Assembly (NCBI GenBank): GCA_900316055.1
Contig: ONBK01000006.1
Coordinates: 1 to 64,000 of the forward strand
Direction: 5' to 3'
DNA: 64,000 nucleotides
From: an uncultured Bacteroidales bacterium
GTDB lineage: Bacteria; Bacteroidota; Bacteroidia; Bacteroidales; P3
Shown piece after piece: positions 1,960 to 63,284 of the stretch (position 1 is its first letter; each line of letters begins with the position of its first letter). Both the position numbers and the translations under genes were made by a program. The notes beneath the pieces are model-generated. The model searched no databases, was not told the origin of the DNA, and worked only from the letters and a program-made list of their open reading frames with translations.

Positions 1960-2160
1960 TAACGGTTAAAGGTTAACGGTTTTTCGCTGGATTTGATTTA
2001 TTTCAGCGGTGCTCAAGGCCTGCGGAGCAGGCAGAACGGTTAAAGAGGCTGGCGCAGTAACAGGTAACGGTTAAAGGTTTTTCGCTGGATTTGATTTATT
2101 TCAGCGGTGCTCATGGCCTGCGGAGCAGGCAGAACGGGTAAAGAGGGTGACGCGATAACG
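1960..2160 (+). repeat. Two copies of an ~85-base intergenic repeat
   Basis: Two near-identical units start at 1979 and 2077 (98 bases apart). Each contains TTTTCGCTGGATTTGATT, then TTTCAGCGGTGCTCA, then a short palindrome GCCTGCGGAGCAGGC, and is flanked by variants of AACGGTTAAAG. A third copy lies at 4588-4670 and an inverted copy at about 25380-25458. The 301-base stretch between 1908 and 2210 holds little else. Confidence 0.85.
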
Positions 2161-4557: not shown

Positions 4558-4811
4558 CGGTTAACGGGTAACGGTTAAAGGGTAACGGTTTTTCGCTGGA
4601 TTTGATTTATTTCAGCGGTGCTCAAGGCCTGCGGAGCAGGCAGAACGGTTAAAGAAGGCTGACGCGGTAACAGGTAATGGTTAAAGGGTAACGGCTCTGC
4701 CTGGCTCCATAGGAGACACGGCCTGCGACGCAAGCAAAGTCGGTGGGCAGGGGCTGGAGCAAACGGTTAAAGAAGGCTGGCGCAGTAATGGGTAACGGGT
4801 AAATTTAAGAA
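4558..4811 (+). repeat. Repeat-filled spacer
   Basis: The spacer holds a third copy of the ~85-base repeat (4588-4670) and, downstream, a second core (about 4695-4765, with GGCCTGCGACGCAAGC and GGGCTGGAGC) framed by the same AACGGTTAAAG word. The words GGTAACGGTTAAAG recur at least five times. Confidence 0.85.
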
Positions 4812-15411: not shown

Positions 15412-16587
15412 ATGAGATATTACATCATAGCCGGCGAAGCCTCGGGCGAGCTCTATGGAGCCAACCTCATCAGAGCCCTGCGCGAGCAAGACCCGCAAGC
15501 GGAGTTCCGCTTCTGGGGCGGCGACGCTATGATGCAAGAAGCCGGCCAACCGGTACGCCACATCCGAGACCTCGCCATCATGGGCTTTGTCGAGGTGGTG
15601 ATGCATCTCCGCACGGTGCTGGGCAACATCAGCTTCTGCAAACGCGACATCCTCGACTGGCATCCCGATGCCGTCATCGGCATCGACTACCCCGGATTCA
15701 ACCTGAAAATCGAGAAGTGGGCACATAACCACGGCATCAAGGCCATCCATTACATTTCCCCCCAACTGTGGGCTTGGAAAAAAGGTCGCCTGAAAGGCAT
15801 GAGGAAATACCTCGACCGACTCTGTTACATCCTCCCCTTCGAGCAGCAGTTCTACGCCGAAAACAACTTGCCGCAAGCCACCTATGTCGGTCATCCGTTG
15901 CTGGAAATTATTCAAGGGCGCCCGAAAGACGAACCTTTTGATTTCGACAGCCGTCCCATCATCGCCTTACTGCCAGGGAGTCGGAAGCAGGAAATCAAAA
16001 ACAGCCTTCACTATATGGTGCGCCTCGCCGCCCAACATCCCGAATATCATTTCATTGTGGCGGGCATGAGTCTCATCGGACCCGAACTCTACGACAGCAT
16101 CATAAAGAAACAATCAAGCAATCAAACAATCCTGCCTGAGCGACAGCGAACGGCCTGCGACCAACGTGGAGCAAAGCAATCAAGCAATCTCACAGTCCTC
16201 TACGACCAGACCTACCGACTGCTGTCGCAATCCTATGCCGCTGTTGTCTGTTCAGGTACCGCCACCCTCGAGACGGGTCTCTTCCACGTTCCTCAGGTGG
16301 TATGCTATCGCGGGAATCCTGTCTCCATCGCCATCGCCCGTGCCCTCGTGGGCAGCCGCATCAACCACATCGCGCTGGTCGACCTCATCGACGACAGCAA
16401 TGTCGTCACCGAACTCCTCCAGCAGGATTTCAACGACGAGCGTCTCGAGCACGAATTCCAGCTCATCACCACCGACAACGCCAACCGCAAGCGCATGCTC
16501 GAAGGCTATCGTCGTGTGGAAGAGAAACTCGGCAGCGCCGGCGCCAGCCGGCGTACCGCCCAAACCATCATCGAAACTATCCAATGA
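15412..16587 (+). CDS. lpxB: Lipid-A-disaccharide synthase with repeat-derived insertion
   Basis: A 391-residue glycosyltransferase (GT19) that joins UDP-diacylglucosamine to lipid X in lipid A synthesis on the inner face of the inner membrane. Family motifs are clear: AGEASGELYGANLI at the start, YYISPQLWAWK-like YISPQLWAWK near residue 118, LLPGSRKQEI near 185, and SGTATLETGLF near 281. Residues about 233-260 (DNA 16108-16190) are extra compared with relatives and are encoded by word repeats: CAATCAAG tracts on both sides of a 45-base core that also occurs in rimO in a different frame. The insertion lies in a loop between the Rossmann halves. Since LpxB is normally essential in bacteria that make lipid A, the loop is probably tolerated. 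Confidence 0.92.
   Translation: MRYYIIAGEASGELYGANLIRALREQDPQAEFRFWGGDAMMQEAGQPVRHIRDLAIMGFVEVVMHLRTVLGNISFCKRDILDWHPDAVIGIDYPGFNLKIEKWAHNHGIKAIHYISPQLWAWKKGRLKGMRKYLDRLCYILPFEQQFYAENNLPQATYVGHPLLEIIQGRPKDEPFDFDSRPIIALLPGSRKQEIKNSLHYMVRLAAQHPEYHFIVAGMSLIGPELYDSIIKKQSSNQTILPERQRTACDQRGAKQSSNLTVLYDQTYRLLSQSYAAVVCSGTATLETGLFHVPQVVCYRGNPVSIAIARALVGSRINHIALVDLIDDSNVVTELLQQDFNDERLEHEFQLITTDNANRKRMLEGYRRVEEKLGSAGASRRTAQTIIETIQ
16108..16190 (+). repeat. Repeat insertion inside lpxB
   Basis: Octamer tracts built from CAATCAAG flank a core at 16131-16175 that begins CCTGCCTGAGCGACAGCG and ends ACCAACGTGGAGCAAA. The core differs by one base from rimO 20804-20848. Total length is compatible with the reading frame. 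Confidence 0.85.
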
Positions 16588-17966
16588 AACATCTTGCTAC
16601 CATATTACTGATACTACTTTCTGCACTCAGCGCCCACGCCGGGAGCCAAGGGGCGCGAGCACCTTTTTCTGAAAACCCCACAGTGAGCAACGTGAAGGTG
16701 CGCCTCTACTCTGCCAACACCATCAAACAACTCAACATCTCCATCGACCTCGGTCACTATAACCTCTACGCCACCGACAACGGAAGCGACGAACTCCTTG
16801 AAGACATGATTGGTGACGGGCGTTCCATTATTCTCCGCTCCGAGGGCAAGAAAGTGCATGTCAGCGTCAATGAGACCGACTACGGTACCTTCAAGTCTGT
16901 CCGTCTCGAAACCGCCGACACCGCCTGCATCCTCTGCCTCAATCCCGCCAACTGCAAACAACGCACCTACGAAGGCAACCTCGAGATTTCCACCCTTAAA
17001 AATGGAAACCTGCTCATCCTCAACGATGTCGAATTCGAGACCTATATCGCCGGTGTCGTGCAGAGCGAGATTTACGGCAACCAGACCGACATCTTCCGCA
17101 TCCAAGCCATCATCTCGCGCACCTGGGCGCTCCGCAATATGAGAAAGCATGCTGCTGAAGGCTACAACTTCTGCGACCATGTCCACTGTCAGGCCTACCT
17201 CAACCGCTGCATCCGACCCGACATCATGCTCGGTGCCATCGAGAGCAGCGGGGAAACCCTCGTCGACTCCACAGGGGCGCTCATCGAAACTCCTTTCCAC
17301 TCCAACTCGGGAGGCGAGACAGCCAACTCCGAAGATGTCTGGCGCGCCGCCCTACCCTACTTGCGTGCTGTTGAAGACACCTTCTCGTACAACATGCGGC
17401 AGAGCAACTGGACCAAGATTATCTCGCGCGACCGCTGGCTTAACTATTTCTCTAAAACACACAAAATCGACATCAACGACTCCACCAATCTCGACACCCT
17501 GCTCTCCTTCACACAGGAACACCGCAAAGTGAACCTCCTCGGAGTTCCCCTCACCTGCATCCGTACCGACTTCCAGTTGAAGTCCACCTTCTTCTCCGTC
17601 ACTGTCGACAGCACCACCAACGACATCATCCTCCTCGGTCACGGATACGGACACGGTGTCGGTCTCTCGCAAGAAGGAGCCATCCGCATGGTCTCCCTCG
17701 GCATCTCCTACGACAGCATCCTGCAACACTACTACACGGGAGCCATACTCTACCACGACCCCTATGCCAACTCTGGTTACGTCGCCGACTACGTGAAAAA
17801 GATATCACAAATCATCGAAGAAGACAAAAACACCAAAACACAAGTCCATTCCAAGAAAAACGACTGGCTGGGGCGCCTCTTCCGTCTGCGCGACCGTGAG
17901 GAACGTGAAGAAATCTATATTGAGGAAGAGCAAGACAACGAGAAAGACTGGGAGTATGACTGGTAA
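16584..17966 (+). CDS. SpoIID/LytB domain exported protein
   Basis: A 460-residue protein with signal peptide (about residues 1-20) and a SpoIID/LytB domain in its middle and C-terminal part. The motifs FHSNSGGETANSEDVW and GHGYGHGVGLSQEGA are characteristic. SpoIID cleaves glycan strands lacking stem peptides, and LytB-type members enhance amidases; in Bacteroidetes the role is less studied but cell-wall remodelling is expected. The ATG at 16584 overlaps the lpxB stop (ATGA). A charged C-terminal tail of about 60 residues (many Glu, Lys, Arg) follows the domain. Confidence 0.85.
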   Translation: MKHLATILLILLSALSAHAGSQGARAPFSENPTVSNVKVRLYSANTIKQLNISIDLGHYNLYATDNGSDELLEDMIGDGRSIILRSEGKKVHVSVNETDYGTFKSVRLETADTACILCLNPANCKQRTYEGNLEISTLKNGNLLILNDVEFETYIAGVVQSEIYGNQTDIFRIQAIISRTWALRNMRKHAAEGYNFCDHVHCQAYLNRCIRPDIMLGAIESSGETLVDSTGALIETPFHSNSGGETANSEDVWRAALPYLRAVEDTFSYNMRQSNWTKIISRDRWLNYFSKTHKIDINDSTNLDTLLSFTQEHRKVNLLGVPLTCIRTDFQLKSTFFSVTVDSTTNDIILLGHGYGHGVGLSQEGAIRMVSLGISYDSILQHYYTGAILYHDPYANSGYVADYVKKISQIIEEDKNTKTQVHSKKNDWLGRLFRLRDREEREEIYIEEEQDNEKDWEYDW

Positions 17967-18021
17967 TGGTAAAGGGTTATAGGTTATGGGTTATTGACTT
18001 TAAAAAGATAAACAAAATATT
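17967..18021 (+). repeat. Word-repeat spacer
   Basis: Variants of GGTTATAGGTTATGGGTTATTG follow the SpoIID gene in broken form: AAGGGTTATAGG, TTATGGGTTATTG. This is the same word class as in the spacers at 19548, 31854, 47228 and 49123. Confidence 0.7.
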
Positions 18022-18576
18022 ATGAAGAAATACATCAAAATATTAGTTTGTACAAGTTTGTTTTTCACCTTTCTCCTTTCACCTTTCACCTCCCTCCGGG
18101 CTCAGGTGAAATGGCACACCATCGAGGAGGCTGCGAGTGAAAAGATAGGCACGAAACTCTATTTCATTGACTTCTACACCTCTTGGTGCGGATATTGCAA
18201 GAAGATGGACCGCGAGACCTTTACCGACCCAACCGTTGCCAAGATTCTCAACAAATACTATTATCCCGTCAAGTTCAACGCCGAAGGCACCAACACCTTT
18301 GTTTGGTTTGGAAAGACCTACAACCCTGCATCTGCTGGCCGCAACCGTACCCACGAATTTGCCAAGGGGGTCCAAGGATACCCCACCTTCAACCTCTTCA
18401 CCGCCGACGGAAAACTCTTCCAATCCATTCCCGGCTATGTAGCCGCCAAAGACTTCACCGTCATCCTCTGGTACCTCGCCTCCGGCGACTACAACCGCTA
18501 CTCCTACGAACAATACCAGAAAATCTTCGACAAAGACATCCGTCCCACTATGGAGAAAGCATTGAAAAACCTTTAA
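18022..18576 (+). CDS. Exported thioredoxin-like protein
   Basis: A 184-residue periplasmic protein of the thioredoxin-7/DUF255-like group. The redox motif WCGYC lies near residue 54-58 within YTSWCGYCKKMD, and the cis-proline motif GYPTFNLF follows near residue 119. It likely reduces or isomerises disulfides in the cell envelope. The signal peptide ends at LRAQ; its hydrophobic core is encoded by repeated TTTCACC words (18064-18100), as in four other exported proteins of this window. Confidence 0.8.
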   Translation: MKKYIKILVCTSLFFTFLLSPFTSLRAQVKWHTIEEAASEKIGTKLYFIDFYTSWCGYCKKMDRETFTDPTVAKILNKYYYPVKFNAEGTNTFVWFGKTYNPASAGRNRTHEFAKGVQGYPTFNLFTADGKLFQSIPGYVAAKDFTVILWYLASGDYNRYSYEQYQKIFDKDIRPTMEKALKNL

Positions 18577-18587
18577 CCTTTTACAAT

Positions 18588-19547
18588 ATGGGCCTATTTG
18601 ATTTCATCCGCAAGAGCAAAGAAGAGGAGAAGCAAACCCTCGACCAGGGATTGGAGAAAACCAAGACCTCACTCTTCCAAAAGATTACCAAGAGCATCAT
18701 CGGCAAGTCCACCGTCGACGACGAGGTGCTCGACAACCTCGAAGAAACCCTCATCACCAGCGATGTAGGCGTCGAGACCACACTCAAAATCATCGACCAC
18801 CTGCAGGAGCGTATCAAACGCGACCGCTATATCTCCACCTCCGAACTCAACTCGGTGCTCAAAGCCGAGATAGCGCAGCTCCTGCGACAGGACACCAGCA
18901 GTTTCCCTGCTGACTTCGACTCCCCTATGCCGAAGAAGCCCTATGTCATCCTCGTCGTGGGTGTCAACGGTGTGGGTAAGACCACCACCATCGCCAAGTT
19001 GGCCTACCGCTACAAGGCTGCCGGCAAGAAGGTCATCCTCGGCGCTGCCGACACCTTCCGCGCTGCTGCTGTCGAGCAGCTTATGCTCTGGGCCGAGCGC
19101 GTCGACGTACCCATCGTCCAGCAGGGCATGGGGGCCGATCCCGCTTCCGTGGCCTTCGACACCCTCCAGTCGGCACTGGCCAAAGAGTCCGATGTCGTCA
19201 TTATCGACACCGCCGGACGTCTCCACAACAAGGTGGGCCTCATGAACGAGCTCACCAAGATACGCCGCGTGATGCAGAAACTCGTGCCCGACGCGCCCCA
19301 CGAGGTGCTCCTCGTCCTCGATGCCTCCACCGGGCAGAACGCTGTCGAACAGGCCCGCCAGTTCACCCAGGCCACCGATGTCAACGCCCTCGCCCTCACC
19401 AAACTTGACGGCACCGCTAAGGGTGGCGTCATCATCGGCATCTCCGACCAGTTCCACGTCCCCGTGCGCTATATCGGCCTCGGGGAGAAGATGACCGATC
19501 TCCAGCTTTTCAACCCCACCGACTTCGTCAACTCCCTTTTTGAATAA
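18588..19547 (+). CDS. ftsY: Signal recognition particle receptor FtsY
   Basis: A 319-residue SRP-type GTPase. The NG domain is complete: helical N part (residues 20-95), P-loop GVNGVGKTT, the DTFRAAA motif, DTAGRLHNK and TKLDGTAKGG. FtsY receives ribosome-SRP complexes at the inner membrane. The acidic A domain is short, as in other Bacteroidetes. The ATG at 18588 is the true start; upstream in-frame sequence belongs to another frame of the thioredoxin-like gene. Confidence 0.97.
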   Translation: MGLFDFIRKSKEEEKQTLDQGLEKTKTSLFQKITKSIIGKSTVDDEVLDNLEETLITSDVGVETTLKIIDHLQERIKRDRYISTSELNSVLKAEIAQLLRQDTSSFPADFDSPMPKKPYVILVVGVNGVGKTTTIAKLAYRYKAAGKKVILGAADTFRAAAVEQLMLWAERVDVPIVQQGMGADPASVAFDTLQSALAKESDVVIIDTAGRLHNKVGLMNELTKIRRVMQKLVPDAPHEVLLVLDASTGQNAVEQARQFTQATDVNALALTKLDGTAKGGVIIGISDQFHVPVRYIGLGEKMTDLQLFNPTDFVNSLFE

Positions 19548-19587
19548 TGGTTATTGGTTATAGGTTATTGAGAAACATTAATCAATA
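19548..19587 (+). repeat. Word-repeat spacer
   Basis: Short spacer made of GGTTATTGGTTATAGG and GGTTATTGAG words between ftsY and rimO. Confidence 0.7.
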
Positions 19588-20931
19588 ATGAAGATTAATA
19601 TTATAACACTGGGGTGCAGCAAGAACACCGTCGACAGCGAGAAGCTCGCCGGAAAACTGCAAGCAGAAGGCCATACCGTTTACTTCGACGGGCAACCCAC
19701 TCAAGCAATCAAACAATCACGCAATCACGCAATCCATTTCGACACCGTCATCGTCAACACCTGCGGCTTCATCGGCGACGCCAAAGAGGAGAGCATCAAT
19801 GTCATCCTCGAGCAAATCGAAGCCAAGAAACGTCGCCACAACAAGACCCGCCTCATCGTCGCCGGCTGTCTTGTGCAACGTTACCAAACGGAACTGCAGG
19901 CCGAGATGCCCGAAGTCGACGAGTGGCACGGAACCCACTTCTTCAGCCTCTCGGAGCCGCTCCGAAGCCTCTCCACCCCCAGTCACTACGCCTATCTCAA
20001 GATTGCCGAAGGCTGCAACCGCAGCTGCTCCTACTGCGCCATCCCCCTCATCCGCGGCGCCCACCATTCGCGCCCCATCGAGGAGATTGTCGACGAAGCC
20101 AAAACCCTCGTCGACAGCGGTGTCAAAGAACTGATAGTCATCTCGCAAGACACCACCTACTACGGTCTCGACCTCTACCACAAACGCGCCTTGGGCGACC
20201 TCCTCGAGCGTCTCGCCACCGAGAGCGGTGCCCCTTGGATACGCCTCCACTACACCTATCCCTCCTCCTTCCCCCTCGACGCCATCGACGTCATCCGTCG
20301 CCACAAGAACATCTGCAACTACATCGACATCCCTCTCCAGCATATCAACACCCGCATCCTCACCTCCATGCAGCGTGGCATCGACCGCGAGGGTACCCTC
20401 AAACTTCTGGAGCATTTCCGCCGCGAGTTGCCCGATGTCTCCATCCGCACCACCCTCATCGTCGGCTACCCCGGCGAAACCCGCGAGGAATTTGAAGAGC
20501 TCAAGGAGTTTGTCCGCACCGCCCGTTTCGACCGCATGGGCTGCTTCGCCTACTCCCCCGAGGAAGGCACCGCCGCCTACCGTCTTGCCGACGATGTGCC
20601 GCAGGAGGAGAAAGAGCAACGTGTAGCCGAGCTGATGAACCTGCAGGAGCAGATCTCCTACGAGAAAAACCAAGCCCGCGTAGGCAACACCTACGAAGTC
20701 CTCGTCGACAGAGCGGAAGGCGATTATCTTGTCGGCCGCACCCAGTACGACAGCCCCGAAGTCGACGACGAAGTACTCATCCCCATTCAAGCAATCAATC
20801 AATCCTGCCTAAGCGACAGCGAACGGCCTGCGACCAACGTGGAGCAAATCAATCAAACAATGATAGGCAACTTCCTTCAAGTCCGCATCACCTCCGCCAA
20901 CCCCCACGACCTCTTCGGAGAAATCATATAA
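19588..20931 (+). CDS. rimO: Ribosomal protein S12 methylthiotransferase RimO with two repeat insertions
   Basis: A 447-residue radical SAM enzyme that adds a methylthio group to an aspartate of ribosomal protein S12. It has the UPF0004 domain (LGCSKNTVDSE, VNTCGFIGDAKEES), the radical SAM cluster motif CNRSCSYC and a C-terminal TRAM domain. Two stretches are extra compared with relatives: residues 38-50 (DNA 19700-19735, CAATCAAAC/CAATCACG words) and residues about 400-425 within the TRAM domain (DNA 20786-20862), which contains the same 45-base core as lpxB read in another frame. All cluster cysteines are kept, so the enzyme is probably active. Confidence 0.95.
   Translation: MKINIITLGCSKNTVDSEKLAGKLQAEGHTVYFDGQPTQAIKQSRNHAIHFDTVIVNTCGFIGDAKEESINVILEQIEAKKRRHNKTRLIVAGCLVQRYQTELQAEMPEVDEWHGTHFFSLSEPLRSLSTPSHYAYLKIAEGCNRSCSYCAIPLIRGAHHSRPIEEIVDEAKTLVDSGVKELIVISQDTTYYGLDLYHKRALGDLLERLATESGAPWIRLHYTYPSSFPLDAIDVIRRHKNICNYIDIPLQHINTRILTSMQRGIDREGTLKLLEHFRRELPDVSIRTTLIVGYPGETREEFEELKEFVRTARFDRMGCFAYSPEEGTAAYRLADDVPQEEKEQRVAELMNLQEQISYEKNQARVGNTYEVLVDRAEGDYLVGRTQYDSPEVDDEVLIPIQAINQSCLSDSERPATNVEQINQTMIGNFLQVRITSANPHDLFGEII
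19700..19735 (+). repeat. CAATCAAG-type octamer tract inside rimO
   Basis: Four CAATC words spaced by AAA/ACG form an in-frame insertion just before the VNTCGF motif of RimO. Confidence 0.7.
20786..20862 (+). repeat. Second repeat insertion inside rimO
   Basis: CAATCAAT words flank a core at 20804-20848 (CCTGCCTAAGCGACAGCG ... ACCAACGTGGAGCAAA) that differs from lpxB 16131-16175 by one base. It is read here as a peptide containing SDSERPATN, unlike the RQRTACDQRG reading in lpxB. Confidence 0.85.
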
Positions 20932-20967: not shown

Positions 20968-20975
20968 TACTTTTG
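20968..20975 (+). promoter_or_regulatory. -7 box for the btuB operon
   Basis: TACTTTTG matches TAnnTTTG and lies a few bases before the riboswitch, so the transcript starts with the aptamer. Confidence 0.65.
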
Positions 20976-20979
20976 CAGT

Positions 20980-21158
20980 CGGTTTCGGTTCCCCCGCAAG
21001 GGGGCCAAGAGGGAATCAGGTGAGAATCCTGAACAGTCCCGCTGCTGTGAGTTCCAGAGAGATACACAGTTTTATAAACCACGGTCACTGTGGTGCCAGC
21101 AGGCACTATGGGAAGGCCAAAACTGTGTAGGAACAAGTCAGAAGACCTGCCAAAACCG
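20980..21158 (+). ncRNA. Cobalamin riboswitch
   Basis: The leader contains the hallmarks of the cobalamin aptamer: a closing stem CGGTTT/AAACCG (20980-20985 and 21153-21158), the AAGAGGGAATC and GGTGAGAATCC block, CAGTCCCGCTGCTGTGA, a GGGAAGGCC segment, and the B12-box AGAAGACCTGCC near the 3' end. Such aptamers bind adenosyl- or other cobalamins and lower expression when B12 is plentiful. It lies about 40 bases upstream of the btuB-like gene and controls it and probably the btuG-like gene. Confidence 0.95.
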
Positions 21159-21200
21159 CAATCAATCATTAACAGCCCTCGAGGATAGGACGTTTTGGTT

Positions 21201-23273
21201 ATGAGCATTGTTGTTGAACACATAGTATCGTTTATTGTTTGCCGCCGACATAAAGGCGGTGCCGCACTGCTCAAGACGCTCCTTACCTCGGGGGTCTTTT
21301 TTTTCTCCTTTCACCTCTCACCTCTCACCTTAAACGCCCAGACGCCCGACTCGTTGCGCCGTGAACGTCTCGACGAGGTGGAGATCAGCGCACAGCGCTC
21401 GCCCTCGGAGATGCGTACCGCAGCACCCACGCAGGTGCTCGACATCGAGCACCTCGAGCATACCGGTGCCCTGCAACTCAGCGACGCCATCAAGCAGATG
21501 GCCGGCGTGACCCTCAAGGACTATGGCGGCGTGGGAGGCATCAAGACCGTCTCTGCACGAGGCCTCGGGAGCCAGTTCTCGACCATCACCATCGATGGCA
21601 TCCCCGTGGACGACTCGCAGAACGGCCAGGTGGACCTCGGGCGCTACACCCTCGGCAATGCCGCCTATGTGAGCCTCAGCCAAGGGCAGGAGGAGAGTCC
21701 GCTGCTCTCCGCCCGCGCCTATGCTGCCGGCAGCACCCTCAATATGGAGACAGCCGTGCCGCAGTTCTGGCCCGGAGAGCGTGTGAAATTCAGGGCCGGC
21801 ATCGAAGGTGGCAGCTTCGGATTCCTCTCCCCCACCCTCCTCTGGCAGCAGCGGTGGAACAAGAGGCTCAGCAGCAGCATCTATGTGAACTACCTCCGCA
21901 GCGACGGTGACTATCCCTTCACGCTCTACTATACCGCCTCGCACCAAGACAGTTCCTCCACAGAGCGCCGCCAGCACTCCGCCGTCTGGATGCTCACCAC
22001 CGATGGCAATCTCTTCTATACCTTCGCTCCCGACAACACCTTGATGGTGAAGGCGCACTATATGCGTGGCGAACACCAGCTGCCGGGGCCGGTACACTAC
22101 TACAGCCAGGCCCTCTCCAACGAGAACACCCGCGAGGAGGTGGCATTTGTGCAGGGCAAATGGAAAATGGAAAAAGACAAGTGGAAGGTGCAGTTGCTGG
22201 GCAAGTTACAGAGCACCTATGACTTCTACGAAGACTCCTCCTCGAGCAGCTCCACGGGCTACCTCTTCAACGAATACCGCCAACGCGAGGGCTACCTCAG
22301 CGCCAGCACCAATATCACCCTTACGGATTGCCTCTGGCTCGATTTCGCCGCAGACGGCGACCTGAGCCGGTTGGAGAGCAATCTTGCCCAGCGCAACGAG
22401 GTGACACGGACCAAACTCGTCGCTGTAGCGGCACTGCGCTACCGGCACAAAGCCCTCGAGCTCCGTGGCAACCTCGTCTTCAACAGCATCCGCGACCATG
22501 TGGGCGACCTCGACACCACCCCTCGCTTCCAACGTCTCTCGCCCTACCTCTCGGCGAGATACACCCTCGGCGAGGGCACCACGCTGCGCCTCTTCTACAA
22601 GGAGACCTTCCGCACCCCCAGCTTTGGCGAACTATACTTCTTCCAGTCGCTCCCCCGCAACCTACGACCCGAACGCGCCCACCAGATCAACCTCGGCCTC
22701 ACTCACAGTTTACAGTTTACAGTTTATAGTTTACAGTTCACAGCGGATGTGTACTACAACCACGTCAGCGACAAGATTGTCGCCCGTCCGGGGCACAACA
22801 TGTACTACTGGAGCATGGAGAACCTCGGCACCGTCGACATCCTCGGCATCGACGCCACCGCCGACTTTTCGTTCACCATCCATCATTCTTCATTCAACAT
22901 CAACCTAAACTACTCCTACCAGCATGCCGTCGACCACAGCGATGAAGCCAGCAAAGTCTACGGCCACCAGATTATCTACACCCCGCGCCACTCCGGTGGT
23001 GCCAGCCTCCGCTGGGAGCATCCCTGGGTGAACCTCGGTGCCACCGCAATAGTCGTCGGCGAGCGCTACAGCGGCGCACAGAACAGCGATGCCACCCGTC
23101 TGCCCGCCTACTGCGATGTGGGGCTCAGCGCCGACCGCAGTTTCGACCTCCGCATCGGCACCCTCACCCTCCGCGCCTCGCTAATGAACCTCTTCGACGT
23201 GCAATATGAGGTGGTACGCTCCTACCCCATGATGGGACGAAACTGGAGACTTGGGGTGACGTATGAATTTTGA
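21201..23273 (+). CDS. btuB: TonB-dependent cobalamin receptor, BtuB-like
   Basis: A 690-residue outer-membrane receptor: signal peptide ending LNAQ, TonB-box-like DEVEISAQ, plug domain (about residues 60-165, with DGIPVDDSQNG) and a 22-strand barrel ending in aromatic residues (LGVTYEF). It imports corrinoids using TonB energy. The riboswitch directly upstream and the BtuG-like lipoprotein downstream identify the substrate. Repeat-like DNA lies inside the gene at 22704-22745 (repeated ACAGTTTACAGTTT, an extracellular-loop/turn position near residue 502-515) and at about 22156-22195 and 22870-22900. The signal-peptide core is encoded by CACCTCTCACC words (21303-21335). ATG 21201 is favoured over TTG 21195. 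Confidence 0.9.
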   Translation: MSIVVEHIVSFIVCRRHKGGAALLKTLLTSGVFFFSFHLSPLTLNAQTPDSLRRERLDEVEISAQRSPSEMRTAAPTQVLDIEHLEHTGALQLSDAIKQMAGVTLKDYGGVGGIKTVSARGLGSQFSTITIDGIPVDDSQNGQVDLGRYTLGNAAYVSLSQGQEESPLLSARAYAAGSTLNMETAVPQFWPGERVKFRAGIEGGSFGFLSPTLLWQQRWNKRLSSSIYVNYLRSDGDYPFTLYYTASHQDSSSTERRQHSAVWMLTTDGNLFYTFAPDNTLMVKAHYMRGEHQLPGPVHYYSQALSNENTREEVAFVQGKWKMEKDKWKVQLLGKLQSTYDFYEDSSSSSSTGYLFNEYRQREGYLSASTNITLTDCLWLDFAADGDLSRLESNLAQRNEVTRTKLVAVAALRYRHKALELRGNLVFNSIRDHVGDLDTTPRFQRLSPYLSARYTLGEGTTLRLFYKETFRTPSFGELYFFQSLPRNLRPERAHQINLGLTHSLQFTVYSLQFTADVYYNHVSDKIVARPGHNMYYWSMENLGTVDILGIDATADFSFTIHHSSFNINLNYSYQHAVDHSDEASKVYGHQIIYTPRHSGGASLRWEHPWVNLGATAIVVGERYSGAQNSDATRLPAYCDVGLSADRSFDLRIGTLTLRASLMNLFDVQYEVVRSYPMMGRNWRLGVTYEF
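22704..22745 (+). repeat. TACAGTTT word repeat inside the btuB-like gene
   Basis: Four TACAGTT or TATAGTT words in a row encode SLQFTVYSLQFTA in the barrel. The word type is known in this window only as repeat-like sequence. Confidence 0.75.
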
Positions 23274-25358: not shown

Positions 25359-25379
25359 CTCTAAACCTTTATCTTTAAC

Positions 25380-25458
25380 CGTTTTGCCTGCTCCGCAGGC
25401 CTTTAGCACCGCTGAAATAAATCAAATTCAGCGAAAAAACGTTAACCATTAACCGTTA
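25380..25458 (-). repeat. Inverted copy of the ~85-base intergenic repeat
   Basis: It contains CCTGCTCCGCAGGCC, GCACCGCTGAAATAAATC and the AACGGTTAAAG-type ends in the reverse orientation relative to 1979, 2077 and 4588. It overlaps the spacer between the PHP and DUF4476 genes and runs into the last codons of the PHP gene. Confidence 0.8.
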
Positions 25459-26215
25459 CTCCCCTGAACGCCATCGTATCGATCCACCGACCCTCCTGGC
25501 CTTTCAGCGCCATTGCGAACTCTTTGAAAGAGCGGTGCTCCATGTAAATGACATTGTAGACATCGCCCACATTATTGATGAAATGCGCGTCGCTGTCGGT
25601 GATGAAGCCGAATTTCTTCAGGTAGGCGAACTTCTTGACGAATTCGTCGCGTGTGACAAACTTATTGATTTCCAACCCATCGGCACGAAGGTCTGGCGGC
25701 ACGAAACCCAGCTGACTTGTGAGCGAGGTAGTACCCTTGTTGACGTGTGCCGGGATGAAGAGGCCACCGATGCGGTGTACCTCGTCGTAGATGCCATCGA
25801 TGTCCACATCGATGGCGTTGAGCAGGTGGTACTCTTCCTCGCCTACAATCTCCTCGTTCTCATCGACGATGAGCTGGTATCCAAAGCGGTCCTCATCGTT
25901 GGGAATCTTGGGCAGGTGTTCGTCGAGGAACGCCTGCATCTGGTCGAGCTGTTCGTCGGTCTCGAAGAAGCAGAGGCAGTGTGCCTCTTCTTGCGAAGTT
26001 ACCTCCACGCCTCCCAGTACAAAGAGACCTTTCTCCTTGCCCACCTTTTGCGTCACCTTCACCTGCCGTGTGGTGTTGTGATCGCTGATGGCAATCATAT
26101 CCAGCCCACGCTCGAGCGCGCGGTCCACGATGGCCGTCGGCGACATTTCGAGATCGCCGCATGGCGACAGCACCGTGTGGATATGCAGATCTGCCTTGTA
26201 AGGATTCAACGGCAT
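25442..26215 (-). CDS. PHP domain metal-dependent phosphoesterase
   Basis: A 257-residue cytoplasmic protein of the PHP family. Metal-binding motifs are clear: DLHIHTVLSPCG (residues 9-20), ISDHNTT (near 43-49), the HVNKG segment and TDSDAH near residue 212-217. Members hydrolyse phosphate esters such as 3',5'-bisphosphates or act on histidinol phosphate. The ATG at 26215 starts 17 bases after the DRTGG gene ends, which indicates an operon. The last residues (VTVNG) are encoded in the AACGGTTAA word of the adjoining repeat. Confidence 0.85.
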   Translation of the reverse strand: MPLNPYKADLHIHTVLSPCGDLEMSPTAIVDRALERGLDMIAISDHNTTRQVKVTQKVGKEKGLFVLGGVEVTSQEEAHCLCFFETDEQLDQMQAFLDEHLPKIPNDEDRFGYQLIVDENEEIVGEEEYHLLNAIDVDIDGIYDEVHRIGGLFIPAHVNKGTTSLTSQLGFVPPDLRADGLEINKFVTRDEFVKKFAYLKKFGFITDSDAHFINNVGDVYNVIYMEHRSFKEFAMALKGQEGRWIDTMAFRGVTVNG

Positions 26216-49185: not shown

Positions 49186-51705
49186 ATGAAGCATTTGTCC
49201 CCTTCACTCCACTCTCACTTCCCTCTCACTTCCCTCTCACTCCTACTCCTTCTCACCTTTCACCTTTCATCTTTCACCTTGTTCGCCCAGCCCATCCAGA
49301 ACGGCGACAAGTTCTGGGACGGCGCCGTCTTCTATCAGGCCAGCACCTTCAGCAGTGGTGCCGTAGACCTCGTCGGCAAAGATATCAACGGCGACGAATA
49401 TAGCATTGCCCTCATCTGGAACGAAGACAAAAACGAATATTCCGTCTTCTCCCGCAACGGCGCCATCGCCCTGCGCGTCAACGAAGGAGCCAGAGTGAAG
49501 AAACTCTTCATCGACCGCGTTTCCCATTTCCTGGTCTTCTACAATAACAAGGGCGACGCCGCCTGGACGTTGAGATACTTCCTCAATGCCGACCTGCAGA
49601 GCTGCACCCTCATGGAGCGCAACCTCGAGCAGATGCCCACCTCCGAAGTCATCACCACCCACCTGCTCAACACCACCTGGCTGGCACGCTTCCCCAAGGA
49701 GGAGCTGCGCCTCATGCGCAACGAAATTCTCGCCCGTCACGGCTGGAACTTCCAATCCAAAGACCTGCAGGACCACTTCAAGAAAGAGAAATGGTACAAG
49801 CCCGTCAAGGACAACAGCACCGTCGTCCTCAGCGACCTCGAGCGCACCAACCTCGAACTCATCAAAGCCGAAGAGGCCACACCCGATGATTACCGCTACA
49901 GCATGCTCTCACCCGACATGTTCCCCGGCGGTCTGGCCGACGACGGCCGCGGACCCGAAGAGATCAACGGCGTGCAGACCTATACCGTCACCAACGAGCG
50001 CGAGTTCCTCAACGCCCTCGGTCCCAACCGCACCATCGTCCTCGCCAAGAACGTGCACCTCAACCTCTCGCGCGTCCTCGAGAACGAGAGCCTCTTCATC
50101 GACAACCCCAACCGCCGCTGGGTTCAGTCCGGAGAAGACTTCATCGGCACTATTCCCCTCGTCATCAGCGAAGGAGAGACCGACGGCCAGCAGCTCGACC
50201 TCGTCAATATCGACAACCTCACCATCCGCGGCGCCGGCAACGCCAGCATCGAAGTCGACCCGCGCTACTCCTACTGTCTCTACTTCATCAACTGCCACCA
50301 CTGCCGTGTGGAGAACCTCACCATCGGCCACACCGAATACGGTTTCTGCTCCGGCGGCGTCATCGGCGCGAAGAAATGCGACATTCTCGAAGTTCTCGAC
50401 TGCGACCTCTACGGCTGCGGCACCTACGGCTTCGACGTCATGGAGAGCCGCAACCTCGATGTCCGCAACTGCAACGTCCACCATTGCACCTACGGCATCA
50501 TGCAGCTGCGCAAGTCGCAAGGGCTGCACTTCACCAACTGCGACTTCTTCCAAAACAAGGAGTACGACCTCGTCGAAGGCCGTGGCTGCAAGGATATCAC
50601 CTTCACCGACTGCCGCTTCTACAGCAACAAATACGATAACACCCTCTTCAGTTTCGACTCCAAATTCGTCCTCGAAGGCTGCGAGATCTACTGTCCCACC
50701 GACAAACTCGGCACCATGAGCCAAGCCGACCAGTCGGGCAAGAAAAACTTCTTCTCCCCCGAGTCCGACCCCCTCAACCTCGCCACCCGTCCCATCGGCC
50801 CCGACCAGCAGATCCTCGCCTCCATGCCCATGTTCCTCTATATCCTCGACAAGGACCACATGCAGATGGTCTACTGGAGCGACGTGAAAGAACCCGTGCT
50901 GAACGATGAGAGCGCCGACTACTACGAAGCCGAGCATGCCCGCTGGGAGCTGCAGGAAAGTTTCCGCCAGAATGCCGAGAAGTACATCAACCTCATCACC
51001 CCCTCCGGCAAGGTCTGCATCCTCAAACACATCGGCGAGACCCTCAAGGATTCCAAAGGCCGCGACATCTACCCCGGCGAGCTCCACAGCCGTCCCTCCA
51101 TCCCCTCCCCGGGTCTGAAATACGCCTTCGCCTACCCCGGCAACATGCTGCCGGAAGACGAGATGTGGGGCATGTGGGTCGTCGTCACCAACGACTACCT
51201 CCGCAGCCACGCTTTCGTCCCGATGACCTACCATCTCGACAGTCCCAAGACCCTGCCCTCCAAAGTCGTCAAGCAACTCGAGAAGCAGTACAATATGAAA
51301 GCCGAGCGCTCGCAGCTGATAGAATCCAACGACCGCTTCGGCTACGGCGTCCTCCAATTCAAAGGCCCGTGGAAGACCCGCATCGGTGAATACGGCGACA
51401 CCACACAGGTGGCTCTGGCTCTCGAGGTCTTCACCGTCGACGGCAAGGTCTACGCCTACCCCATGGAAGGTTACTACGACAACGTCTATGGTCCCACCTG
51501 GAATGCCGACGATGGTGGCGAATACATGTCAGGTGATGTCATGGTTTTTGACAGTCCCGACGGCCCCGAATTCTGCCATATCCACGGCGCCCCCGAGAGC
51601 ATCACCGTCAGTCTCTTCACCATCCGCGACGGCAAACTCACCCACCAGCGTTACGAAGTCTACCACGCCCTCTACGACGAACCCGACCCCAACTGGGAGG
51701 AATAA
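49186..51705 (+). CDS. YARHG-domain and parallel beta-helix exported protein
   Basis: An 839-residue protein. The signal peptide, unusually leucine, serine and threonine rich, ends near FAQ and is encoded by CACTTCCCTCTCACTTCCC-type words. Residues about 160-230 form a YARHG domain (RNEILARHGWNF, KEKWYKPV). Residues about 330-510 look like a right-handed parallel beta-helix (LTIRGAGNASIEV, VRNCNVHHCTYG, FTDCRFYSNKY). The last 300 residues are not recognised. YARHG domains are extracellular and of unproven role; beta-helices often bind or cut polysaccharides. No lyase catalytic residues could be named. Confidence 0.72.
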   Translation: MKHLSPSLHSHFPLTSLSLLLLLTFHLSSFTLFAQPIQNGDKFWDGAVFYQASTFSSGAVDLVGKDINGDEYSIALIWNEDKNEYSVFSRNGAIALRVNEGARVKKLFIDRVSHFLVFYNNKGDAAWTLRYFLNADLQSCTLMERNLEQMPTSEVITTHLLNTTWLARFPKEELRLMRNEILARHGWNFQSKDLQDHFKKEKWYKPVKDNSTVVLSDLERTNLELIKAEEATPDDYRYSMLSPDMFPGGLADDGRGPEEINGVQTYTVTNEREFLNALGPNRTIVLAKNVHLNLSRVLENESLFIDNPNRRWVQSGEDFIGTIPLVISEGETDGQQLDLVNIDNLTIRGAGNASIEVDPRYSYCLYFINCHHCRVENLTIGHTEYGFCSGGVIGAKKCDILEVLDCDLYGCGTYGFDVMESRNLDVRNCNVHHCTYGIMQLRKSQGLHFTNCDFFQNKEYDLVEGRGCKDITFTDCRFYSNKYDNTLFSFDSKFVLEGCEIYCPTDKLGTMSQADQSGKKNFFSPESDPLNLATRPIGPDQQILASMPMFLYILDKDHMQMVYWSDVKEPVLNDESADYYEAEHARWELQESFRQNAEKYINLITPSGKVCILKHIGETLKDSKGRDIYPGELHSRPSIPSPGLKYAFAYPGNMLPEDEMWGMWVVVTNDYLRSHAFVPMTYHLDSPKTLPSKVVKQLEKQYNMKAERSQLIESNDRFGYGVLQFKGPWKTRIGEYGDTTQVALALEVFTVDGKVYAYPMEGYYDNVYGPTWNADDGGEYMSGDVMVFDSPDGPEFCHIHGAPESITVSLFTIRDGKLTHQRYEVYHALYDEPDPNWEE

Positions 51706-55535: not shown

Positions 55536-57109
55536 ACCACTTGATTGATGGCCTCGATGCAACGAATGCCATCGAGGGCGGAACTGACAATTCCTCCAGC
55601 ATAACCTGCACCTTCACCGCAGGGATAGAGTCCGGCGAGCTGGGGATGCTGAAGCGTAACTTTGTCGCGGGGGATGCGTACAGGCGAGGAGGTGCGACTC
55701 TCGACAGCCAAAAGACTGGCCTCCTCGGTAATAAAGCCTCGCATTTTACGATCGAAATCCTTGAAGCCCTGTATCAGACAGTCCACCACGAAAGGTGGCA
55801 ATATCTCGTGCAGTGGCGCGCTGACGCAGTGCCCCATATAGTTGCTCTTGTTGAGATGCGATGAAGATTTACGACGAAGGAAGTCCACGAGACGTTGCGA
55901 CGGTGCATCGATGCAGCCGCCGGCAGCCTCGAAAGCACGCTGTTCAACAGATTTTTGAAAATTGAGCAACGCCAACGGCGAAGCCAATTCTTCATTCTTC
56001 ATTTTTAATTCTTCACTCAGATTTACGGTGACAGCGATGCCGCTATTTGCGAATCCACTGTTGCGAGCGGCATTGCTCATACCATTAACCACCTGTTGTC
56101 CTCCTGCCGTGGCGGCAGGAACGATAACACCTCCGGGACACATGCAGAAACTGAAGACACCATGCTGGTTGCTTGATTGCTTGATTGCTTGATTGCTTGA
56201 GTATACCTGTGTCACCAAGCTGTAAGTGGCTGGCGGAAGCAAAGGAGAGTAACCCTTGCCGTGGTATTGTATCTCGTTGATGAGTTCCTGTGGATGCTCC
56301 ACACGGACACCAAGAGCGAAAGGTTTGGCCTCGAGGAGCCAACCTCGACGGGCAAAGAGTTCATAGATATCGCGAGCAGAATGTCCTGTGGCTAAGATAA
56401 CGGCATCACCTTCGATGAAATTATTCCCCAAGGTAACCACTCCTTTTAGACGTCCCTCTTTGACAATCAAATCAATGACACGCGTATTGAAAAAATATTC
56501 ACCGCCAGATTCCGTGATGGTCTTACGCATATTGCTGATGATGGCGGGTAGGCGGTCGGTGCCGATATGGGCGTGGACATCGACCATAATGTCGGGGTCA
56601 GCACCATGCTCGACAAAGAGACGTAGCACCTGCGACACATCGCCACGCTTGGTAGAGCGTGTGTAGAGCTTTCCGTCGCTGTAGGTTCCAGCGCCACCTT
56701 CGCCAAAGCACCAGTTGCTGTCGGGATTCACCTCCTTGGTACGTACCAGCGAGACTATATCCTTCTTGCGCTCTTCCACAGGCTTTCCACGCTCAATAAT
56801 AATTGGCTTCATGCCCAGCTGCAATGCCCGCAAAGCTGCGAAAAGGCCGGCTGGGCCAGCTCCGACAATGATGATTCGGGGTGCGCTAGGATTCGGAGTA
56901 ATTGGGACAATCGGAGTGTTCTGAGTATTCTGACCAATTACTACAGTACAGTGAAAGAGCGGCCGGCGACGACAGTCGATGCTGCGCCGGGTGATACGGA
57001 AAGGCTCCAAAGCGCTCTCACCCACCCCCAACGCTTTCGCCACAGCACGTCGCACGGCGGCTTGGGAGGCATACTCTTCGGGGGTGAGGTCTATCTGTAT
57101 CTGCTTCAT
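55532..57109 (-). CDS. FAD-dependent oxidoreductase with repeat insertions
   Basis: A 525-residue flavoprotein of the group of uncharacterised FAD dehydrogenases. An N-terminal extension of about 75 residues is followed by the Rossmann motif VGAGPAGLFAAL, FGEGGAGTYSDGKLYT and a FSFCMCPGG segment typical of the group, and ends with a GEGAGYAGG motif. Substrate unknown. Two segments come from word repeats: residues 302-315 ([15 protein letters not shown] 56166-56206) replacing a short turn before FSFCMCPGG, and EELKMKNEELAS (DNA about 55980-56020). The stop overlaps the LTA-synthase-like stop on the other strand. Confidence 0.88.
   Translation of the reverse strand: MKQIQIDLTPEEYASQAAVRRAVAKALGVGESALEPFRITRRSIDCRRRPLFHCTVVIGQNTQNTPIVPITPNPSAPRIIIVGAGPAGLFAALRALQLGMKPIIIERGKPVEERKKDIVSLVRTKEVNPDSNWCFGEGGAGTYSDGKLYTRSTKRGDVSQVLRLFVEHGADPDIMVDVHAHIGTDRLPAIISNMRKTITESGGEYFFNTRVIDLIVKEGRLKGVVTLGNNFIEGDAVILATGHSARDIYELFARRGWLLEAKPFALGVRVEHPQELINEIQYHGKGYSPLLPPATYSLVTQVYSSNQAIKQSSNQHGVFSFCMCPGGVIVPAATAGGQQVVNGMSNAARNSGFANSGIAVTVNLSEELKMKNEELASPLALLNFQKSVEQRAFEAAGGCIDAPSQRLVDFLRRKSSSHLNKSNYMGHCVSAPLHEILPPFVVDCLIQGFKDFDRKMRGFITEEASLLAVESRTSSPVRIPRDKVTLQHPQLAGLYPCGEGAGYAGGIVSSALDGIRCIEAINQVV
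56166..56206 (-). repeat. TGCTTGAT octamer array inside the oxidoreductase gene
   Basis: Four consecutive octamers (TTGCTTGA/TGCTTGAT register) on the plus strand. Confidence 0.85.
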
Positions 57110-57117
57110 GAGAGGTA

Positions 57118-59226
57118 TTATCTGGCGGTGTCGAGAAGAGACTGAAGTTCTTTTATTTCGTCGCGAAACTTGGCAGCAACCAGAAAGTCGAGTTCCTTGG
57201 CAGCAAGCTGCATCTTGCGCTGACGTTCACGTATCTCCTTACGCAACTGTTCTTTTGTCATTGCGAGGAAGGATGAATTCTTTGATTGTTTGATTGCTTG
57301 ATTGCTTGAGTCTTCGACTGGTTCACCAAAGGAAGCGCGGGACTCGGCGGCAATGAGGATATCCTCCTTATAGATGCTGATGGGATCCTTCTCTATAATA
57401 CCACGTTCCTCTGCTGCACGTTCAATGACTGAAGTAGTGCCGAGAATGGCATCGGTAGACTTGACTATCTGGCGCGGAACGATGCCGTGTTCCATATTGT
57501 ATTTTATCTGCTTCTCCCGGTGACGGTTGGTGATGTCGATGGCACGTTGCATGGATCCCGTGATGGTGTCACCATAGAGGATGGCCTTGCTGTGCACATT
57601 GCGGGCGGCACGCCCGATAGTTTGAATGAGGGCACGGTCGGAACGTAGGAAACCCTCCTTGTCGGCATCGAGGATAGCCACGAGGCTCACCTCGGGGAGG
57701 TCGAGACCTTCACGCAATAGGTTGACACCTACCAGCACGTCAAAGACTCCCATACGGAGGTCGCGCATAATCTCCACACGCTCGAGGGTATCTACGTCGG
57801 AATGAATATATTTACTCCTGATTCCCAGATTAATCAGATAGGAAGTAAACTCCTCGGCCATACGTTTAGTGAGGGTGGTGACGAGGACACGTTCGCCTTT
57901 GTCAACGGTGTTCTCAATCTCGTCAAGCAAGTCATCGACCTGACTGACGGCGGGACGAACCTCGACAACTGGGTCGAGAAGGCCCGTGGGACGTATCACC
58001 TGCTCAACAACCACACCTTCAGCCTCGTTGAGCTCATAGTCGGCAGGCGTGGCGGAGATATAGATGGTCTGACCGGTGAGATTGTAGAATTCCTCATAGG
58101 TCAAGGGGCGGTTGTCCAAGGCCGAAGGAAGTCGGAATCCATATTCAACCAACGAGGTTTTACGGCTACGGTCTCCCCCGTACATGGCGCCAATCTGGGG
58201 CACTGTGACATGACTCTCGTCAACGACGAGGAGGAAATCGTCCGGAAAATAGTCAATGAGGCAGAAGGGACGGGAGCCTGGCTGTCGGCCGTCGAAATAG
58301 CGGCTATAATTCTCGATACCAGAACAATATCCGAGTTCCTGTATCATCTCGAGGTCATAGTTGACGCGCTCCTCAAGACGCTTTGCCTCGAGGTGCTTGT
58401 CGATGGAGATGAGATAGTCGCGACGGTCGAACATGTCACGCTGTATCTGAAGGATAATCTCGGGAAGATGATCCTTGGAGGTGAGAAAGTTAGAGGCAGG
58501 GTAGATGATTATTTCATCGAAACGCTCAAGACGCTGACCGCTGATGGGATCGAAGCTCTCAAGCGACTCCACCTCGTCGTCCCAAAAGGAGACTCGGTAG
58601 CAGAAATCAGCGAATGAGGGGAAGATGTCGACGGTGTCTCCCTTGACGCGAAAACGCCCGTTAGTGAACTCAATCTCGTTTCTCACATACTGTCCATCAA
58701 GGAGTTTCATCAGTAGTTGGTCGCGCTGGATTCGGTCGCCGACGCGTATCTCGACGGTACCTTTCTTGAACTCGTCGGGATTGCCGATACCATAGATACA
58801 ACTCACGGAGGAGACCACGATGACATCACGACGTCCACTCAGCAGCGCACTGCTGGCACGGAGTCGTAGTTTGTCGAGTTCGTCATTGATTTGCAGGTCT
58901 TTCTCAATATAGGTATTGGTGGCAGCAATGTAAGCCTCCGGCTGGTAGTAGTCGTAGTAGGAGACAAAGTACTCGACAGCGTTGTCGGGGAAAAACTGGC
59001 GGAACTCTCCGTAGAGCTGTGCCGCGAGAGTCTTGTTGTGGCTCAGCACCAATGTGGGGCGCTGCAGCTGCTGAATGACATTGGCCACAGTAAAAGTCTT
59101 GCCCGAGCCAGTGACACCCTGAAGCACCTGGGCACGCTGGCCACGCTTGACGCCATCCACGAGTTGGCGGATGGCGTCAGGCTGGTCGCCCATGGGGGCG
59201 AAATCAGATTTGAGATTGAAGTCCAT
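57118..59226 (-). CDS. uvrB: Excinuclease ABC subunit B (UvrB)
   Basis: A 702-residue DNA repair helicase. Walker [14 protein letters not shown], the beta-hairpin [19 protein letters not shown], and the UVR motif near the C-terminus ([15 protein letters not shown]) are present. It verifies lesions in nucleotide excision repair and loads UvrC. Residues 639-650 ([15 protein letters not shown] 57279-57311) are a repeat-derived insertion in the linker between helicase and UVR domain, a place where flexible sequence is tolerated. Confidence 0.97.
57279..57311 (-). repeat. TGATTGCT octamer array inside uvrB
   Basis: Four octamers of TTTGATTG/TTGATTGC type in a row on the plus strand, the same word as in lpxB, rimO and the FAD oxidoreductase. 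Confidence 0.85.
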
Positions 59227-62945: not shown

Positions 62946-63081
62946 ATTGATATTGTTTTTTTTGTTAATATTTCAATGTCAATATCGGCATCTTACTTTT
63001 TTCGGGGGAAAACACATACAGACGCGACAAATCACGTCTCTACCGGAGTGCTTTTTCCTCGAAAGCGGTACCGATTTTAGT

Positions 63082-63248
63082 GATTTGGCAGGTCTTCTGG
63101 CTTGCTCTCTCGGCTCTGTCTTCCCATATAACTATAGCGTTATACAGTGACACATCATATTGAGCTTCAATACCTGAGCTTACAGCAGCGGGACTGCACC
63201 GGACTCTCACCGGTTTCCCTCTTGGCACCTTCGGCAGGTGACCAAATC
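63082..63248 (-). ncRNA. Second cobalamin riboswitch
   Basis: Reading on the minus strand from 63248: closing stem GATTTGG/CCAAATC, AAGAGGGAAACCGGTGAGAG-type block, CAGTCCCGCTGCTGTAAGC, a GGGAAGAC segment and AGAAGACCTGCC before the end. This is the same aptamer class as at 20980. It stands 136 bases upstream of the first codon of the triple-domain protein. Confidence 0.95.
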
Positions 63249-63253
63249 GGCGG

Positions 63254-63284
63254 CAAAAATACAAAATAAAATTAAACCGACAAA
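63254..63284 (-). promoter_or_regulatory. Promoter for the riboswitch-T9SS operon
   Basis: On the minus strand TTTG (63281-63284) and TATTTTTG (63254-63261) are 19 bases apart; transcription should start just before the aptamer. Confidence 0.7.

Follow-up and report, generated by a model that had tools for sequence, protein, structure and literature searches.

Nested short-word arrays and a candidate mini-element in conserved genes of a Bacteroidales genus

In an uncultured Bacteroidales bacterium the conserved genes lpxB and rimO contain near-identical copies of a small DNA element, each set within a tandem array of short words. We propose that these copies reflect two nested layers of repeat DNA in genes, in which arrays occupy tolerant loops of the encoded proteins and a mini-element would subsequently insert cleanly. 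Both genes lie within the first 64,000 nucleotides (nt) of the forward strand of contig ONBK01000006.1 (assembly GCA_900316055.1), a stretch referred to throughout as the window. Comparison of this DNA with its genome of origin, with other genomes of the genus and with sampled genomes of the family and order leads us to place the probability of this reading at about 0.6.

Results

A two-layered block in lpxB and rimO

A first-pass annotation of the window had described a common core in lpxB (16131-16175) and rimO (20804-20848). Both cores were found, they differ by a single base and, as that annotation had stated, they are translated in different frames, giving LPERQRTACDQRGA in lpxB and CLSDSERPATNVEQ in rimO. 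Over 78 nt, comprising the core and its flanking words, the two genes are 94% identical, while the 35-nt inner core occurs twice in the window and had no match at three or fewer mismatches in 100 dinucleotide shuffles. The CAATCAAG words reported to flank the cores are indeed present, not as ends of the element but as tandem 8-mer arrays that also exist without a core. The word was ruled out as part of the element because bare arrays occur at the same loops and cores are found within other words. The block shared by the two genes thus consists of two layers, a discrete element of 42 nt being flanked on both sides by a tandem array (Table 1). When stops were checked frame by frame two of the three forward frames of the core proved to be open, the third containing TGA in the lpxB copy and TAA in the rimO copy; all three reverse frames of the lpxB copy are also open. 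The enlarged proteins, as had been claimed, keep their frame and still match their family profiles, and homologues are available in the PDB for both LpxB (5w8s and 5w8n) and RimO (4jc0). The possibility that the core is a known RNA family was ruled out, as the three Rfam matches at gathering score in the 64-kb window all lie away from the cores.

Anatomy and distribution of the element

The element, designated family 1, begins with CTGCCTG, which is followed by a variable stretch that usually forms a hairpin, by GGCCTGCGACC, by a short loop and finally by GGAGCA. At least 77 distinct copies, with at least 52 distinct sequences of 35-45 nt, were assembled from the genome of the window (12 copies), its relatives (17) and named Bacteroidales metagenome-assembled genomes (MAGs), many from the rumen (48, among the matches listed); short-pattern matches in Streptomyces and other phyla were removed by requiring the full element, and the named MAGs were not assigned to a genus. 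Stems vary by subtype at the same place (TGACC/GGTCA, CTCC/GGAG, CCCC/GGGG and TGC/GCA), and the longest stem has a mean length of 3.58 compared with 2.43 in shuffles. The element ends, CTGCC and GGAGCA, display no complementarity, and target duplication was absent from the flanks examined. Family 2, of which seven copies were found, has its left part in common with family 1 and a right part that reads TTGAGCACCGCTGAA...AGCGAAA; copies located in long open frames measure 57 or 60 nt and the others 53 nt.

A search of the whole genome for the exact family-1 pattern returned 13 copies, or 14 when the rimO copy, in which one fixed base of the pattern is altered, is included. The same pattern was present in 26 of 120 genomes of the genus but in none of the 294 genomes sampled from the rest of the order, and a reversed control pattern had no match in these genome sets. 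This is mirrored by a similarity search of 121 genomes of the family, in which the core was confined to one of 12 genera. Copy numbers were 18 in G002, 13 in G000, 11 in G060 and 9 in G086. A blastn search with 16108-16190 against 50,697 phage and 72,556 plasmid records gave no match and the longer element pattern had none in viral contigs, by which carriage on a phage or plasmid was ruled out; two viral matches to a short pattern, with neither CTGCCTG nor array flanks in the sequence examined, were set aside.

Tandem arrays in genes of the genus

The arrays themselves are abundant. A 400-kb stretch of contig C26, which had not been selected for repeats, contained 96 arrays, 74 of them with period 7, compared with none in the shuffled control (one mononucleotide shuffle each for this stretch and the window). 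Predicted open reading frames (ORFs) enclosed 46 of these arrays, 24 were intergenic and 26 lay at edges and were excluded from both classes (as were 2 of 10 in the window), with 33 of the 326 ORFs being touched by an array; these assignments follow a longest-ORF rule that is error-prone, as the array at 18062-18092 was scored intergenic though it lies within the thioredoxin-like ORF 18022-18576, and some in-gene arrays close to ORF starts may sit in false ORF extensions. Around lpxB-rimO in twenty relatives from the genus, 79 arrays were found in 379 kb (37 in ORFs), compared with three in 340 kb (none in ORFs) in as many control stretches drawn from the family and order, which were contig starts of mostly lower G+C. 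Similarly, the CAATCAAR word pattern was matched in 28 of 99 genomes of the genus, whereas the 246 genomes sampled outside it had no match.

Profile searches identified ten ORFs of the genome that bear arrays or elements, to which LpxB and RimO add two. The ten hosts are an LpxH-like phosphoesterase (under the model cut-offs), a nucleotide-sugar dehydrogenase, a sulfatase-domain protein, MutL, MutS2, a KpsF-type isomerase, a subtilase, an LptF/LptG-type permease, an [FeFe] hydrogenase and leucyl-tRNA synthetase. All three sense frames were free of stops in 28 of the 46 in-gene arrays of C26, whereas only one of the 24 intergenic arrays was stop-free on a strand and 13 of the 24 had stops in all three frames of both strands. 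It should be emphasized, however, that this contrast in words is produced partly by the ORF rule, which draws stop-free arrays into ORFs.

Register and insertion site

Periodic flanks, defined by a self-match of at least 0.7, were evident for 22 of the 77 family-1 elements and derive, as judged by eye, from about ten words. In every one of the 22 the array was best and uniquely continued at offset 0 across the core, with between 4/7 and 7/7 matches, an outcome with a probability of about 2e-18 under random phase and independence, although the copies are not independent. Offset 0 was also best in all seven family-2 copies, with one tie. A pyrimidine (Y) forms the left base of the family-1 junction in 77/77 copies and AA follows at the right in 76/77. 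Judged from these junctions, insertion is clean, occurs at Y^AA and leaves no target duplication. A scan that was blind to flanks placed 15 of 48 elements, among the matches listed, in periodic flanks, compared with 69 of 20,000 random positions of the genome.

Orthologous sites in relatives

The LpxB locus was examined in 30 of 94 matching genomes, five of which had no usable start (two loci, L034 and L036, were later read by pattern); the loop was read in 13 of 15 LpxB rows tried, and in 21 and 19 of 30 relatives for RimO loops 1 and 2, respectively. The inserts are not a general feature of either protein. The core was present in none of the 26 readable LpxB loci of relatives, where the loop contains an array but no element in G055, G019, G067 and G062 and no array in several others. 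P0122, a 96%-identical LpxB known here as protein sequence only, is 22 residues shorter, which corresponds to 42 nt and three 8-mers. For RimO, elements were found in only G055 and G002 of the 30 relatives, among the matches listed. Loop 1 comprises six residues in 24 of 30 leaves and is longer in six, which implies a minimum of three changes on the tree, from which the row of G081 (truncated RimO) was omitted. The longer states include an array alone (G176 and G000), an array with one element (G055) and an array with three (G002); the RimO of G002 has a fourth element in loop 2, and all loop states keep the frame open. Loop 2 has undergone nine changes on the tree, a rough count since the loop pattern clipped some loops. 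Empty orthologous sites thus exist in relatives for both proteins, and array first, element second would be the simplest order of events.

Two homologues differ from this picture in other ways. P0207, an LpxB homologue of 492 residues, has at another loop a DSSL-containing repeat of about ten residues that is present twelve times and whose copy number varies among close homologues. P0005, a RimO homologue, resembles the RimO of the window in its N-terminal part, including the loop-1 array, and is divergent in its C-terminal part, making it a possible recombinant or chimeric assembly.

Reading frame and protein loops

Among 84 elements, 24 reside in open frames of at least 220 residues, 20 in the sense orientation and four antisense, the latter perhaps not being in genes. 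Length is divisible by three in 23 of these 24 copies compared with 26 of the 60 others (Fisher p = 4e-6, with copies that are not independent). Elements are found in frame within conserved genes, such as those for LpxB, RimO, the LpxH-like protein and the nucleotide-sugar dehydrogenase, and also outside genes. The suggestion of the first-pass annotation that a small element, open in more than one frame, spreads into genes is in line with the copies in the genome, the genus-limited pattern and the presence or absence of inserts at orthologous sites, from which we infer movement itself; it applies to lpxB, rimO and other genes, though many copies are not in long open frames. In a structural model of LpxB the predicted local distance difference test (pLDDT) score falls below 50 at residues 240-255 only, a segment that encloses the element and has a helix on one side and a strand on the other. 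The model of RimO has six low-pLDDT segments, among them the two altered loops (residues 40-47 and 408-416). The word at one loop differs among species, indicating that the peptide itself is not conserved.

Other features of the window

Two sites at the start of the window, a tandem pair of 98-nt repeats at 1960-2155 and a single copy at 4569-4666, are built from a family-2-like element placed within a GGTTAAA-type array, and a further copy, in inverted orientation, was located at about 25372-25459. TTTCACC-type arrays stand by ORF starts at 18062-18092, 21301-21331 and 49249-49281, two of which resemble parts of signal peptides and read FTFLLSPFTSL and SFHLSPLTLNAQ. The window also contains a 300-nt direct repeat (61599-61898 and 62064-62363; 96% identity, spacing 465 bases) and two cobalamin riboswitches (RF00174) at 20969-21168 (+) and 63070-63261 (-), the former upstream of an ORF that by eye resembles a TonB-dependent receptor.

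Table 1. Host genes, arrays and elements located in the window
Feature	Position	Strand	Remarks
lpxB (lipid-A-disaccharide synthase) ORF, 391 residues, with array and element	15412..16587	+	PF02684, 251.8 bits
Left tandem array in lpxB, CAATCAAR words, period 8	16111..16131	+	
42-nt family-1 element in lpxB, LpxB residues 241-254, translated LPERQRTACDQRGA	16132..16173	+	matches exact pattern; in-register junction
Right tandem array in lpxB, in register with the left one	16174..16189	+	7/8 matches at offset 0
rimO ORF, 447 residues, two loops altered	19588..20931	+	PF00919, PF04055, PF18693
rimO loop-1 array without element, translated QAIKQSRNHAI	19702..19731	+	
rimO loop-2 left array	20788..20804	+	
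42-nt family-1 element in rimO, RimO residues 406-420, translated CLSDSERPATNVEQ	20805..20846	+	one base off the lpxB copy
rimO loop-2 right array	20847..20862	+	
Family-2 element, 53 nt, within GGTTAAA-type array	1982..2034	-	
Family-2 element, 53 nt, within GGTTAAA-type array	4591..4643	-	
CAATCAAG array within a further predicted ORF	56164..56204	-	
CAATCAAG array within a further predicted ORF	57276..57312	-	

Discussion

The explanation that we favour is that short-word tandem arrays, mostly of 7-8 nt, would form in tolerant loops of conserved proteins, and that a mini-element of 35-60 nt would enter at Y^AA, often within such arrays, leaving the array in register and the target unduplicated. 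Inside a gene the element would be tolerated if its length were divisible by three and the frame in use free of stops, its residues then forming a flexible loop, and it may be close to neutral for the host protein. The unit may move in single-stranded form, be recognised through its hairpin and rely on an enzyme acting in trans, such as a Y1/HUH transposase. Single-strand insertion of the IS200/IS605 type leaves no target-site duplication, uses a short fixed target and involves hairpins. The Y^AA target, the phase kept in 22/22 arrays and the lack of duplication are similar. As to subterminal hairpins, the stems of the element are longer on average than those of shuffles but weak in the lpxB/rimO subtype.

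Several observations weigh against this explanation. No excision or fresh insertion was observed, and 55 of the 77 family-1 elements fell short of the threshold for clearly periodic flanks. The AGCGACAGCGAAC subtype, to which the lpxB and rimO copies belong, is a weak hairpin case with no good left stem. Some core subtypes are confined to one word, which is equally expected from gene conversion. Although the Y1_Tnp domain (PF01797) was found in 63 of 99 genomes of the genus, its presence was not associated with that of the element (14/19 versus 49/80, p = 0.43, hand tally); five carriers of the element (G093, G038, G066, G042 and G096) are Y1-negative, two of them being genomes that are 75-80% complete. 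A full core-like copy was located near just one of 20 Y1 loci examined and a right-half-like motif near one more. A Y1 transposase as obligate partner is thus unsupported. At twelve of the Y1 loci (L337, L339, L340, L342-L345, L347-L349, L352 and L353) the gene is flanked, as seen by eye, by hairpin arrays of other families that resemble repetitive extragenic palindromic (REP) sequences, and at L339, in G002, a core-like copy lies amid such arrays.

It could be argued that the core is spread by gene conversion, in which an array-core-array donor pairs with a bare array of the same word and copies the core into it, keeping the register and producing no target duplication. This is the main rival, if an unlikely one. 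It predicts the in-register junctions, and subtypes do tend to track words: the lpxB subtype is represented by four exact copies (L001, L003, L061 and L076) and a one-base variant (L002), which come from two species and are all located in CAATCAAG arrays within open frames. Homology alone, however, does not move a core between words, and related cores, all in register, were seen by eye in about ten (TTTAACC, CAATAAC, CTATAAC, CTATTAT, CAATTCT, CATTCCT, CAATCAAG, CTCCTTAT, AACGCT and CCCTCCAA types); many elements, moreover, lie outside clear arrays. Less probable again is a classical REP element, or bacterial interspersed mosaic element (BIME), mobilised by a REP-associated tyrosine transposase (TnpA_REP, or RAYT), although hairpins, the lack of target duplication, the frequency of PF01797 in the genus and the REP-like surroundings of several Y1 genes are consistent with it. 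REPs are mainly extragenic, which counts against this alternative, as does the missing association across genomes. In the accessible part of PMC6006769 the YIHQNP motif is assigned to Bacteroidetes subclass 2.6; it is present in the Y1 gene of G000:C12, the NHFH of which is one residue off NH[LIV]H, but no core-like copy lies beside this gene. The GTAG/CGTC tags that mark REPs in the portion of PMC3733652 available were found in none of the 52 distinct sequences when the outer 8 nt were inspected on either strand.

Selection on the inserts, either as adaptive loop variation or through intergenic arrays that act as three-frame translation stops, is improbable. The stop-free in-gene arrays, the intergenic arrays with stops in every frame and the repeated loop changes are in its favour, but the longest-ORF rule biases the stop contrast and the loop word varies by species without conservation of the peptide. 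An assembly or annotation artefact, finally, hardly merits consideration, although the named full-element carriers are, as far as titles matched, MAGs or uncultured isolates. Assembly error, which the first-pass annotation had named as a possible undoing of its proposal, sits poorly with the nearest database proteins, P0121 and P0001, which share the inserts with three substitutions each (their 90% clusters hold 15 sequences apiece, the insert state being read in these two proteins alone), with the 25 other genomes of the genus that have the element pattern, and with the location of the inserts in the middle of proteins from conserved families.

A bolder version of our explanation can be offered only tentatively, and we consider it doubtful. 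Here a genus-wide, two-layer engine would enlarge proteins. Some process would seed arrays of 7-8-nt words into genes by drawing on a coding dictionary of words with open sense frames, distinct from intergenic words with stops in all frames; hairpin elements of a new class that makes no target duplication could land safely in these arrays, and loops of enzymes such as LpxB and RimO, along with array-bearing proteins like leucyl-tRNA synthetase and MutL, would have been rewritten repeatedly.

In literature that mostly excluded subscription papers, no description was found of the element, its peptides or intragenic 7-8-nt arrays in Bacteroidales, or of mini-elements nested in phase within intragenic arrays. 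By analogy, the closest system in habit appears to be the Rickettsia palindromic elements (RPE), which in the available text of PMC2229807 are small stem-loop repeats that occur between genes and in frame in conserved genes, an RPE-bearing Gmk being translated and active. The element described here likewise sits in both locations. RPE are 105-146 bp long with terminal inverted repeats, however, and in-register nesting within tandem arrays is not described for them in that text, whereas the present element is 35-60 nt and lacks such repeats; RPE belong to a different phylum and the likeness is by description only. Because size and end structure differ, the element is not counted as a member of the RPE. 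In-frame gene fusion of small non-autonomous elements is also a trait of the enterobacterial RU and enterobacterial repetitive intergenic consensus (ERIC) sequences and the Neisseria Correia elements; a table in the same source gives both terminal inverted repeats and target duplications for ERIC/RU-1 and Correia, only duplications for RU-2 and an unknown state for RU-3, whereas our element has neither. The lack of both also separates it from miniature inverted-repeat transposable elements. REP/BIME sequences with TnpA_REP are similar in being short, mostly hairpin-forming and presumed to be mobilised in trans, with Y1 proteins present in the genus; the element differs in having no GTAG/CGTC tag at its ends, in its frequency in open frames and in its lack of Y1 association.

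Among array systems, the short tandemly repeated repetitive (STRR) sequences of filamentous cyanobacteria are dispersed arrays of heptameric words. The arrays of this genus are similarly dispersed and short-worded; they belong to another phylum, touch a tenth of the sampled genes (33/326) and host a second element. Bacterial intragenic minisatellites, the topic of PMC2884548, are likewise small variable segments within genes, but here periods of 7-8 rather than multiples of three dominate, and identical words turn up in many genes that are unrelated to one another.

The findings would add an example from bacteria, remote from Rickettsia, of conserved enzymes into which short repeat DNA is routinely inserted. 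With in-register arrays, insertion sites can be located to the single base and no strain pair is needed, and bare, single and multiple element states stand side by side in species of one genus. The comparisons suggest that LpxB and RimO may carry extra loops of imported sequence, whose translation could be followed in gut or rumen samples through the insert-spanning peptides LPERQRTACDQR (LpxB) and SDSERPATNVEQ (RimO). The origin of protein insertions, with selfish DNA as a source, may thus be open to study in this genus by comparison and by mass spectrometry.

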